A DNA stretch of 64,000 nucleotides, taken from Cardiobacteriaceae bacterium (GTDB lineage Bacteria > Pseudomonadota > Gammaproteobacteria > Cardiobacteriales > Cardiobacteriaceae). The notes under the pieces are model-generated. The model worked only from the letters and a program-made list of their open reading frames with translations, ran no database searches and was not told where the DNA came from. The position numbers and the translations under genes were made by a program. Where the stretch lies: contig JAUMXB010000014.1 in the NCBI GenBank assembly GCA_030529365.1, positions 1 through 64,000 on the forward strand, in the 5' to 3' direction. Positions 9,532-24,017 of the stretch are shown in pieces (position 1 is the stretch's first letter; each line of letters starts with the position of its first letter).

Positions 9532-12500
9532 ATGTCACGCTTTTTCATCGATCGCCCGGTATTTGCCTGGGTGGTCGCGATTTTCATCATTCTCGGCGGC
9601 CTGCTCTCGCTCTCGCGCCTGCCCATCGAGCAATATCCCAATATCGGCGCGCCGACCATCCAGATCGGCGTGGTCTATCCCGGGGCGCGCGCCACCGACA
9701 TCGAAGAATCGGTGCTGGCGCTCATCGAGCGCGAGATGAACGGCATCGACGGCCTCGATTACATGAGCGCGTCGGCCAATGCCAACGGCACCGGCTCGGT
9801 ATCGCTCACTTTCAAGGCGGGCACCGATGCCGACATCGCCCAGGTGAACGTGCAGAACAACCTCGCGCAGGTCACTTCACGCCTGCCCAGGGCGGTCACG
9901 CAAAACGGCATCCGCGTCTCGCAGAGCAATGACGGCTTCCTCATGGTGGTGGCGCTCACCGCCAAGGAAGGCTCGAATCTCACCGTGCGCGAGATGAGCG
10001 ATTATGCAGTGCGCAACATTCTGCCGGAATTGCAGCGCGTCGAAGGCGTGGGCGGCATCCAGCAGTTCGGTGCGGAATCGGCAATGCGCATCTGGCTGCT
10101 GCCGGACAAACTGCGCGGCTACGGACTGAACGCCAGCGACATTTCCGCCGCCATTGCCGAGCAAAACCGCCAGATTCCGACCGGCAGCCTCGGCGCCCTG
10201 CCCGCCGTGGACGGCCAGCGCTTTTCCGCGGTCATCAACGTGCCCGGGCAACTGGCGAACGTCGAGGATTTTGAAAACATCGTGGTGAAAAGCACCGCCT
10301 CGGGCGCGACGGTGCGCCTGCGCGATGTGGCGCGCGTCGAACTCGGCCAGGAATCCTATGCCGCCTCCATGCGCCTGAATGGCGAAGTCAGCTCGGGCAT
10401 GGCGATACAGCTCGCGAGCGACGGCAATGCGGTCGCGACCGCCAAGGCCGTGAAAGCGCGCATGACCGATCTCGCGCAATATTTCCCCGCAGGGCTGGAA
10501 TGGAATGTGCCGTATGACACCTCCACTTTCGTCGATCTCTCGATCCAGCAGGTGCTCTATACGCTCGGCGAGGCGATGGCGCTCGTTTTCGTGGTGATGT
10601 TCCTCTTTCTGCAAAACCTGCGCTATACCCTGATTCCGGCGATCGTCGTGCCCATTTCGCTGATGGGCGCGCTCGCCATCATGCTGCCGCTCGGCATGTC
10701 GATCAACGTGCTCACCATGTTTGCCATGGTGCTGGTGATCGGGATTGTGGTCGATGACGCCATCGTCGTGGTGGAAAACGTCGAGCGCCTCATGGCCGAA
10801 GAAGGGCTCACTCCCTATCAGGCAACCGTGAAAAGCATGGGGCAGATTGCCAATGCCATTGTCGGCATCACTTTGGTGAACATCGTGGTCTTCGTGCCGA
10901 TGGCCTTCTTCCCCGGCGCAACCGGCGGCATCTTCCGCCAGTTCGCCCTCGTCATGGCGGGCTCCATCGGCTTTTCCGGCTTTTTGGCGCTTACCCTCAC
11001 CCCTGCGCTCTGCGCCACCATTCTGAAGCCGGTCAAAGCCGGGCATCATGAAAAACGCGGCTTTTTCGGCGCCTTCAACCGCGTGCTGAAAGCGCTCACC
11101 CATGCCTACGAGGCCACGCTCGCCAAATTCATCCGCGTCAGTTATGCCGTCTTCGTCTTTTATCTGGCGCTGGGCGCGGGCGCGTTCTTCATCTTCCAGA
11201 AGCTGCCCACCAACTTCCTGCCCGACGAAGACCAGGGCTTTGTCATCGCCAGCGCGCAACTGCCCGCCGGGGCAACGGCCGAGCGCACGCTCGCCAAGAT
11301 CGGCGAGATGGAAAAAGTGGCGCTCGCCATTCCCGAAGTGGCCAACATGGCGGCGGTGCAGGGCTTCAGCTTCACCGGCCAGGGGCAAAACATGGGCATG
11401 GCCTTCATCACCCTGAAAGACTGGGCGGAGCGCACGCAAGCCGGGCAAAGCGCGGCAGCCGTCGGCCAGAAACTCATGGGCGGCTTCATGCAGATTCGCG
11501 ATGCCACCATCTTTGCGCTCTCCCCGCCTGCAATTCCCGCACTCGGCACATCGAGCGGCTTTTCCCTGCAACTGGAAGACCGCGGCGGCGCCGGTCACGA
11601 AGCGCTTTTGCAGGCGCGCAACCAGCTGATGGGCATGGCCATGCGCGAGCAGGACGTGATTGCCCAGGTGCGCCCGGGCGGCCTTGCCGACGCGCCGCAG
11701 CTGCGCATCGACATCAACCGCGATGCCGCCTACGCCCAGGGCGTGAGTCTCTCCGCCATTGCTGCGACGCTCGGCATGCATTTCGGCTCGGCCTATGTCA
11801 ATGATTTCCCGAACAGCGGACGCCTGCAGAAAGTCACCATCCAGGCCGATGCCGGCTCGCGCATGCAGGAAGACGATTTGCGCACCCTGAACATCCCCAA
11901 CAACAGCGGCGGCCAGGTGCCGCTCGGCGCCATTGCCCAGTTCCACTGGGAAGACGGGCAAATGCAGGCGAGCCGCTACAACGGCTATCCGGCGATGGCC
12001 CTGAGCGGCAGCGCCGTGCCCGGCAAGAGCACCGGCGAAGCCATGCGCAAGATGGAAGAACTGGCGCGGCAGTTGCCGCCCGGCTTTGCCATCGAATGGA
12101 CGGGGCTCTCGCTCGAAGAGCAGCGCGCCGGCAACCAGCAGCTCTATGTTTACGGCTTTACCATTCTCGCCGTTTTCCTCTGCCTCGCCGCACTCTATGA
12201 AAGCTGGTCGATTCCCTTTGCCGTGCTGCTCGTCCTGCCGCTCGGCTTCCTGGGCGTTTCCGGCGGCGTGTTCCTGCGCAACCTGTTCAACGCCAAGATG
12301 GGCCATGCCGAGTTTTTCGCCAACGACATCTATTTCCAGATTGGCATGATTACCGTGATGGGATTGACCGCGAAAAACGCCATTCTCATCATCGAGTTCG
12401 CCAAAGAATTGCAGGAAAGCGGCCTCTCGCGCATCCAGTCGGCGCTTTCCGCCGCGCATTTGCGCTTCCGCCCCATCGTCATGACCTCGATGGCCTTCAT

Positions 12501-14718: not shown

Positions 14719-14795
14719 CGGAGTATAGCGCAGTCTGGTAGCGCATCTGGTTTGGGACCAGGGGGTCGGGGGTTCAAATCCCTCTACTCCGACCA
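14719..14795 (+). tRNA. tRNA-Pro (anticodon TGG)
   Basis: This is a 77-base cloverleaf with acceptor CGGAGTA/TACTCCG, anticodon loop TTTGGGA giving TGG, T-loop GTTCAAATC and an encoded CCA end. It is first in a three-tRNA cluster and probably co-transcribed. Confidence 0.95.
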
Positions 14796-14811
14796 TCCAA
14801 CGCTTAATGAT

Positions 14812-14888
14812 GTGCCCGTAGCTCAACTGGATAGAGCAACGGCCTTCTAAGCCGTAGGTTACAGGTTCGAGTCCTGTCGGGTGCGCCA
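14812..14888 (+). tRNA. tRNA-Arg (anticodon TCT)
   Basis: This is a 77-base cloverleaf with anticodon loop CTTCTAA (TCT), T-loop GTTCGAGTC and an encoded CCA. The acceptor stem GTGCCCG/CGGGTGC has two G-T pairs near its end. It decodes AGA/AGG, rare codons in this GC-rich DNA. Confidence 0.95.
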
Positions 14889-14941
14889 AATCTTGTGGAA
14901 AGCCATATTGGCAGCCAGACAAAGCGAAGCAAGTTCTCAAT

Positions 14942-15019
14942 GGTGGATATAGCTCAGTTGGTCAGAGCGCTGGATTGTGATTCCGGAGGTCGTGGGTTCG
15001 AGCCCCATTATCCACCCCA
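14942..15019 (+). tRNA. tRNA-His (anticodon GTG)
   Basis: This 78-base cloverleaf includes the extra 5' G (G-1) paired with C73 that marks tRNA-His. The anticodon loop TTGTGAT gives GTG, the T-loop is GTTCGAGCC, and CCA is encoded. It is the last of the cluster. Confidence 0.95.
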
Positions 15020-22034: not shown

Positions 22035-22841
22035 TCACGGGAATACCGCCAGCAGCAGCGCCGAGAGCGCCACGCGGTAAATCACATGCGGCCACATGCC
22101 GTAGCGGTTCAGGAAATGCAGGAAATATTTGATGCACAGATACCCGGCCACGGCGGAAACCACAAAGCCCACCGTGAGCGCCGTCCAGTTGAGCGCGGCG
22201 TCGGCGCGCAACATTTTCACGGTTTCCAGCGTGCCCGCCGCCACCGTGATGGGAATCGACATCAAAAAGGAAAAGCGCGCGGCCGCCTGGCGGTCGAAGC
22301 CCATGGCCAGCCCTGCCGTCATGGTGATGCCGGAGCGCGACACGCCGGGAATGAGCGACAGCGCCTGCGCCAGTCCATACACCAGCGCCGCGCGCCAGCC
22401 GGTTTGCGCGAGAGGACGCCGCTTGCGCCCGAACCAGTCGGCAGCGCCCAGCAGCAATCCGAACACCAGACTGGTGATGGCAATGAGGCGCGGCTCGCGC
22501 AGATGGCTATCCACATGATCGCTCAGGAAAAAGCCGACGATAACAGCCGGAATTGTGGCGAGAATCAGCAAGTTGCCCAGGCGCGCGTATTGCTCGGGAT
22601 CGGCCGGACGCGTGGCACGGAACTGGGCAAACCAGTGATAGAAAATGGCCGCCAGATCGCGGCGGAAATAGCTGACCACGGCCGCCAGCGTGCCGAGGGA
22701 AATAAAGGCATCAAAGGCGACGCCCTGATCGGGCCAGCCGAGAAACCTGGGCACCAGAATGAGATGCGCCGAGCTGGAGACCGGCAAAAACTCGGTTGCG
22801 CCCTGCACGAGGGCAAGAATGAAGGCGTGAAAGGTTTCCAA
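22035..22841 (-). CDS. uppP: undecaprenyl-diphosphatase
   Basis: UppP (BacA) dephosphorylates undecaprenyl pyrophosphate to regenerate the lipid carrier for peptidoglycan and O-antigen; loss sensitises cells to bacitracin. The 268-residue polytopic protein has EFLPVSSSAHLILV near the N-terminus and PGVSRSGITMTAGLA, the two active-site motifs. No ATG fits: the reading frame aligns to family N-termini (ETFHAFILALVQGATEFLP) from a TTG at 22841 with AAGAG upstream, so I call a TTG start. The frame stays open for 350 further codons, but this is antisense to the next gene. Confidence 0.93.
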   Translation of the reverse strand: METFHAFILALVQGATEFLPVSSSAHLILVPRFLGWPDQGVAFDAFISLGTLAAVVSYFRRDLAAIFYHWFAQFRATRPADPEQYARLGNLLILATIPAVIVGFFLSDHVDSHLREPRLIAITSLVFGLLLGAADWFGRKRRPLAQTGWRAALVYGLAQALSLIPGVSRSGITMTAGLAMGFDRQAAARFSFLMSIPITVAAGTLETVKMLRADAALNWTALTVGFVVSAVAGYLCIKYFLHFLNRYGMWPHVIYRVALSALLLAVFP

Positions 22842-22910
22842 GGATGGCTCTTGTTGCAGGTGAAAAAGCGGGGTATTGTACGGCTGTTTGAAAGATTTTG
22901 AATCACTTGG

Positions 22911-23909
22911 ATGGAAATGATGCAAGGCATGACAGCAACGGACAACCCGCCAGCGCGCTACCGGCTTTACGTCCGCCTCGGCTGCCATCTTTGCGACGAT
23001 GCCGCGCGGCTCCTGGCCGCTCTCGGCATCCCTTTCCTGCGGGTGGACGTGGATCGCGATGCAACGCTGCGCGAAGAATACGGCGCATTGCTGCCCGTGC
23101 TGCACGATACGCTGCGCGACCGCGAGCTGGTTTACCCCTTCACTGCCGCCGATGTGCTGGCGGCAGCCAACCTTGAGGAGTCTCCCATGAAACATGAAAC
23201 GCTTTCCTATCTCGCCGGACAGGTTCGTCTGGACGGCGCCCTGTACCTGCCTGCCCAGGCTGCGGGCAAAGTGCCCGGCGTTGTGGTCGCTCCCGAATGG
23301 TGGGGAATGACGGATCATGTCAAAACCGCGGCGGCCAGGCTTGCGGAAGCCGGTTATGCCGCCCTGGTGCTCGATCTTTACGGGCAGGGCAATACCACCG
23401 ACCAGGCCGTGCAGGCCAATGCCTGGATGTCGGCGCTGCTCGACAATCCGGCGGAACTCATGGCTCGCGCCAAGGCCGGCATGGAAGCGCTTGCCGCACG
23501 CCCCGAAGTGGACAGCGCCCGCCTCGCCGCCATCGGCTTCTGCTTTGGCGGCAAAGTGGCGCTGGAAATGGCGCGCGCCGGATTGCCCCTGCGCGCTGCC
23601 GTCAGTTTCCACGGCGGCGTCGAAGCCTTTGCGCCAGCCGAGAAAGGCAAGGTACAGGCAGCGTTGCTGGTCGAGCATGGCGAAGCCGACAGCATGGTCT
23701 CGATGGAAGATGTGGCAGCCTTCCGCGCGGAAATGGATGCGGCGCAAGTCACGTATCACATTGATATTTTCCCCGGCGCCCGCCACGCCTTCACCAATCC
23801 GCAGGCCGATGCCAACGCGGCGAAGAATGGCGTTGATCTCGGCTACGACCCGCAGGCTGCCGCGCAAAGCTGGCAGAACATGCTCGACTGGCTGAAACAG
23901 CATCTGTAA
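22911..23909 (+). CDS. fusion: glutaredoxin-like (DUF836) domain plus dienelactone hydrolase
   Basis: One uninterrupted frame of 332 codons encodes two proteins usually separate. Residues 16-90 form a short thioredoxin-fold domain with C25-HL-C28 (RLYVRLGCHLCDDAARLL). From residue 93, MKHETLSYLAGQVRLDGALY begins a complete dienelactone hydrolase. Its Cys-Asp-His triad is intact: C211 (IGFCFGGK), D260 (HGEADSMV) and H292 (GARHAF). A second ribosome site GAGGAG (23175-23180) sits 6 bases before the in-frame ATG at 23187, so a free 240-residue hydrolase can also be made. The fusion's own start at 22911 has no good site. Dienelactone hydrolases open lactone rings; the true substrate is unknown. 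Confidence 0.8.
   Translation: MEMMQGMTATDNPPARYRLYVRLGCHLCDDAARLLAALGIPFLRVDVDRDATLREEYGALLPVLHDTLRDRELVYPFTAADVLAAANLEESPMKHETLSYLAGQVRLDGALYLPAQAAGKVPGVVVAPEWWGMTDHVKTAAARLAEAGYAALVLDLYGQGNTTDQAVQANAWMSALLDNPAELMARAKAGMEALAARPEVDSARLAAIGFCFGGKVALEMARAGLPLRAAVSFHGGVEAFAPAEKGKVQAALLVEHGEADSMVSMEDVAAFRAEMDAAQVTYHIDIFPGARHAFTNPQADANAAKNGVDLGYDPQAAAQSWQNMLDWLKQHL
23175..23189 (+). promoter_or_regulatory. internal ribosome binding site and start for dienelactone hydrolase
   Basis: GAGGAG is followed by 6 bases and an in-frame ATG within the fusion gene. It is a better site than that of the upstream start. Confidence 0.7.
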
Positions 23910-23938: not shown

Positions 23939-24017
23939 GTTATTTTTTACCATGCACAAGCGCTTATTATGAGAAATATTCCTGCAATAAGCGCTTCATA
24001 ATGAGAAAATTTACCAT
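23939..24017. repeat. AAGCGCTT palindrome locus 9 (two cores)
   Basis: Cores at 23958-23965 and 23989-23996 are 31 bp apart. Outer arms are TTTTTTACC and TGAGAAAATTTACC. It lies between tandem genes, downstream of the hydrolase. Confidence 0.9.

Follow-up and report, generated by a model that had tools for sequence, protein, structure and literature searches.

A glutaredoxin-like gene and a P91-type dienelactone hydrolase gene in one reading frame of a Cardiobacteriaceae genome, probably joined by a one-base change

The joined frame and its closest described relatives

Proteins of the glutaredoxin-like (Glrx-like) family DUF836 are normally free proteins of about 80 aa. Among the dienelactone hydrolases, P91 has a Cys118/Asp167/His199 catalytic triad, and the account of this enzyme describes an inward-pointing, protected conformation of its nucleophile cysteine (PMC9853848). 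Overlap of a stop and a start codon in the sequence ATGA is a common, experimentally supported device for the coupled translation of adjacent genes; in the data given in one report, 13 of 14 tested pairs were strictly coupled (PMC6728339). Reading-frame transitions, some of them conserved, have also been explained by translational coupling (as presented in PMC3711429). No report of a fusion between a glutaredoxin or glutaredoxin-like domain and a dienelactone hydrolase was found in the literature searched.

In the stretch of Cardiobacteriaceae DNA analysed here (the window, 64 000 nucleotides), an open frame at positions 22911–23909 (frame +1, 332 aa, TAA at 23907–23909) runs without an internal stop through two domains. 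PF05768 (Glrx-like) matches residues 19–85 (E 6.3e-10; 39.7 bits against a cut-off of 26; profile positions 4–74 of 77) and PF01738 (dienelactone hydrolase) matches residues 108–332 (E 6.9e-53; 179.9 bits against a cut-off of 21; profile positions 2–217 of 217, a complete domain). The single frame and the two matches above cut-off bear out the in-frame fusion of a CxxC glutaredoxin-like domain to a dienelactone hydrolase proposed in the first-pass annotation. Coordinates of the features are given in Table 1.

The N-terminal part belongs to the DUF836 family, having both the profile match and a CxxC motif (CHLC, 22983–22994, frame residues 25–28). Its nearest solved relative is XCC2852 (PDB 1xpv/1ttz); the CHLC motif and a PF motif near the end align with this protein and with other DUF836 proteins. 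Unlike them, the window's Glrx-like part has no stop codon of its own.

The C-terminal part is, by profile and triad, a P91-group dienelactone hydrolase, with a predicted esterase or lactonase activity. Its Cys119, Asp168 and His200 (numbered from ATG 23187) are in register with the P91 triad, in agreement with the cysteine nucleophile originally ascribed to it. Matches to the P91/m3DLH group (PDB 4zi5, 7jka, 7jiz, 8vb3 and 9n2w) are near full-length, with E values of 4e-43 to 1e-50; the window frame differs from this group in carrying the N-terminal Glrx-like part. No signal peptide is seen in the hydrolase when read from ATG 23187. Several hydrolase homologues in other families of the class (e.g. 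L005, L013 and L039) have an N-terminus that resembles a signal peptide by eye. The translation of the whole fused frame contains three cysteines only, the CxxC pair and the nucleophile.

Table 1. Features at the Glrx-like/hydrolase locus of the window
Feature	Position	Strand	Basis or remark
Glrx-like (DUF836, PF05768) part	22917..23186	+	Pfam; PDB relatives; separate 83-aa gene in the sister genome
Fused open frame	22917..23909	+	Probable start, chosen by alignment with the sister; first ATG of the frame at 22911
Junction, TTG here and CA in the sister	23173..23175	+	Window one base longer
Ribosome-binding site GAGGAG of the hydrolase	23175..23180	+	Six bases before ATG 23187; AAGGAG in the sister
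Dienelactone hydrolase, own start ATG 23187	23187..23909	+	Pfam; alignment with P91
Inverted repeat, one copy of a REP-like family	23945..24009	.	3' of the hydrolase

The fused frame lies between a BacA/UppP gene upstream, on the opposite strand, and a rhomboid gene downstream. The minus-strand frame of BacA/UppP (22035–23903, 622 codons) is open antisense across the entire Glrx-like/hydrolase region. The whole BacA profile is already contained in 22035–22838 (267 aa), so an annotator could place the BacA start far too early. A cluster of tRNA genes (Pro, Arg and His; ARAGORN) is present at 14719–15019.

The repeat 3' of the hydrolase belongs to a family of REP-like palindromes with arms AAGCGCTTAT and ATAAGCGCTT and a TGAGAAAWTTTCTCA-like core, found at 35 sites in the window from 3136 to 63458; AAGCGCTTAT occurs 35 times against 0.14 expected. 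Counts of the two-arm pattern are 463 for the window's genome, 447 for the sister genome described below and 98 for a genome of another genus (G003); each of the remaining nine genomes of the family has it once at most. The window's genome has one Y1 transposase gene (C17:35639–35998) and none was found in G003, which nevertheless has the repeats; no link between repeat and transposase is therefore shown.

The sister locus and the junction

The sole same-genus genome compared (G001, Cardiobacteriaceae bacterium isolate S30M_Sa_23; here the sister) is a metagenome-assembled genome, 78% complete at 14x coverage. On its contig C52 (JAUNKJ010000031.1), the two parts match in two different frames at the same place as the window locus. 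The Glrx-like gene (11412–11663, 83 aa) and the hydrolase gene (11660–12382) are separate, and the TGA of the first overlaps the ATG of the second (11660) in a four-base ATGA. The main Pfam matches of the two proteins are Glrx-like and dienelactone hydrolase, as in the window. A stop codon between the domains, suggested at the outset as something to look for in relatives, is thus present in the sister.

This is exactly the arrangement of an ATGA-overlapping coupled pair, with a ribosome-binding site before the second start in both genomes (GAGGAG or AAGGAG, six bases, ATG). The window keeps the ATGA and the ribosome-binding site, but its upstream TGA is out of frame, and so the two frames are joined. 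Alignment of the junction gives CCAACC-TTG-AGGAG in the window and CCAACC-CA-AGGAG in the sister, a net difference of one base. In the +1 frame relative to the fused one, the window's translation ends in ...TLRSLP, the stop being the TGA (23188–23190) inside ATGA; the joined frame and the two genes of the sister are therefore one base apart. Since any ATG followed by A contains TGA in another frame, the overlap does not prove independently which state is ancestral.

Both parts are under protein-level constraint, most differences between window and sister falling at third codon positions (pN/pS 0.235/0.645 for the Glrx-like part and 0.116/0.581 for the hydrolase); at a dS of about 1.1–1.5, the two genomes are highly diverged at synonymous sites. 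Residues at the junction lack conservation. AGGAG, the six-base spacing and the ATG are common to both genomes while the residues encoded there differ (NLEESP in the window, NPRRPT in the sister). Conservation of the ribosome-binding site and its spacing but not of the residues, in a stretch of five or six bases compared between two genomes, suggests that selection has acted to preserve a start site and not a linker. ATG 23187, with GAGGAG six bases upstream inside the fused frame as first described, is thus most likely the ordinary start of the hydrolase. For the upstream start, ATG 22917 is more probable than ATG 22911, as it is the former that aligns with the start codon of the sister's Glrx-like gene.

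The Glrx-like gene ends 10–17 residues past a YPF/FPF motif in each of the eight family loci inspected, one of which is that of the sister. The near-constant position of this stop indicates that a free-standing Glrx-like gene is the state of the family.

Distribution of the fusion and of the gene pair

A search for the same fusion in relatives had been proposed as a check; none of the other genomes searched showed it. In 57 genomes, 44 of which gave any match, the only match over both domains was in the window's own genome, so that 56 other relatives gave no sign of the fusion. Across the 369 genomes of the class, 195 of which gave a match, that of the window's own genome is the only one of the 150 matches listed to span both domains. 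A Glrx-like gene was found near none of 32 dienelactone hydrolase loci by a Glrx-like family model that was built with seven of the eight control loci and recovered all eight. A conserved family of such fusions, in the form of the same fusion in independent genomes, was therefore not seen among the relatives, the class matches listed or these 32 loci.

Both families co-occur in at least 62 genomes of the class among the matches listed (150 per family). At least 10 pairs share a contig, the nearest being 343 kb apart among the matches listed. Ten unusually long hydrolase frames of the class were considered as candidate in-frame fusions and rejected; by the family model, their N-terminal extensions contain no Glrx-like domain. 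CxxC spellings in such frames (two in L036 and one in L006) likewise gave no match to the model.

No close relative of the window hydrolase was found in other genera in a search of 12 family genomes, in which matches beyond the genus (G008 and G009) have only 26–27% identity. Besides the sister, a contig search returned two further loci, both Psychrobacter hydrolases with 48% identity. The Glrx-like model matches neither Psychrobacter locus, and no Glrx-like gene is among the listed neighbours of one of them (L032). Given the lack of a close hydrolase relative elsewhere in the family, a Glrx-like gene next to a P91-type hydrolase is, as far as seen, limited to this one genus of the Cardiobacteriaceae.

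Origin of the joined frame

These observations are probably best explained by a translationally coupled gene pair that became one frame through a one-base change in the window genome. The ancestral unit would have comprised two genes, the first for a Glrx-like thiol-disulfide protein and the second for a P91-type hydrolase, an enzyme probably still made in the sister by termination–reinitiation together with its own ribosome-binding site. The end of the first gene, where the codons are unconserved, would then have changed in length by a net one base, so that its stop fell out of frame and a single open frame ran through both genes. The hydrolase start site would be expected to go on producing the free enzyme of 240 aa in the window, mainly or at least partly, while ribosomes that start at the Glrx-like gene are predicted to run through and yield a fusion about 330 aa long. 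A recent or even accidental merger is the most likely reading, rather than a designed two-part enzyme. That two genes came first and the fusion second is suggested, in a comparison of two genomes, by the free-standing Glrx-like gene in the family and by the retention of the start site where residues differ.

The first-pass annotation had held that the fusion would fall if relatives had two separate genes and a base error had removed the stop here. The first half is borne out by the sister's separate genes and the one-base difference at the junction; the second half, an error, is less likely than a true mutation. An organism that truly has two overlapping genes, like the sister, with one spurious base in its assembled sequence, is an unlikely explanation but one to be taken seriously, as a single base is all that separates the two arrangements. 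The junction site, CCTTGAGG, has no homopolymer run, however, and 37 other gene-sized frames common to window and sister align over 86–100% of the length of the sister's frame with no frame break. This comparison had 40 rows, some of which may be partly antisense frames; two rows in the tRNA cluster and the hydrolase itself were left out, and the gaps in the alignments of window and sister were judged by eye. It excludes a window assembly full of frame errors and indicates that indels within genes are not frequent in either assembly. The comparison detects breaks within genes and not small changes at their ends, and it is silent on the junction, since at that point the sister has its two genes in separate frames. 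The altered codons appear free to vary, so that a true indel could be tolerated in them; together with the high synonymous divergence, this makes such an indel quite possible. A true mutation in the window genome is considered more likely than an assembly error, roughly three times so by our own estimate rather than by computation.

With one same-genus genome for comparison, the ancestor could instead have been fused, with the base lost in the sister's line or in its assembly. That the sister assembly lost a base, the fused gene being the true state of the genus, is distinctly improbable. Loss of one base from a fused gene would give an identical picture, and the sister is an incomplete, metagenome-derived assembly at 14x. 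Against this, both halves are free-standing elsewhere, and a ribosome-binding site and spacing kept where residues differ fit selection on a separate start.

There is very little probability that the Glrx-like domain serves to reduce or protect the hydrolase nucleophile, with long and short forms both made on purpose. Both domains are intact, and the nucleophile, as the only cysteine of the hydrolase, would be the sole thiol target within the protein. The proposed upkeep of a reduced hydrolase by a fused thiol domain nevertheless finds no positive support: the fusion is known from one genome, the free-standing pair of the sister shows that the association needs no fusion, residues near the junction lack conservation, and for the nucleophile of P91 a protected, inward-pointing conformation is described (PMC9853848). 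Equally doubtful is its extended form, a fusion fixed in the species with two products, a free hydrolase and a redox-tethered one that relies on its own Glrx-like domain to regenerate the nucleophile. If true, it would be a redox-tethered fusion seen just after a one-base change in an overlapping pair gave rise to it, and the unfused sister would serve as its control.

Programmed ribosomal frameshifting in one or both genomes is barely credible: the same protein pair does require different frames in the two genomes, but no slippery heptamer was seen by eye at the junction and each arrangement is explicable without recoding.

We return, then, to a coupled pair merged by a one-base change. The two domains, the two frames, the single-base difference and the retained ribosome-binding site are observed directly, whereas the direction of the change, the reality of the base and the protein products are inferred. 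If the base is erroneous, the locus illustrates how a one-base slip at an ATGA overlap can yield a convincing two-domain gene. If it is real, the locus would be a compact natural case of a coupled, overlapping gene pair becoming a fusion protein through a single step, in which the former start site has been retained and a sister species shows the unfused state.
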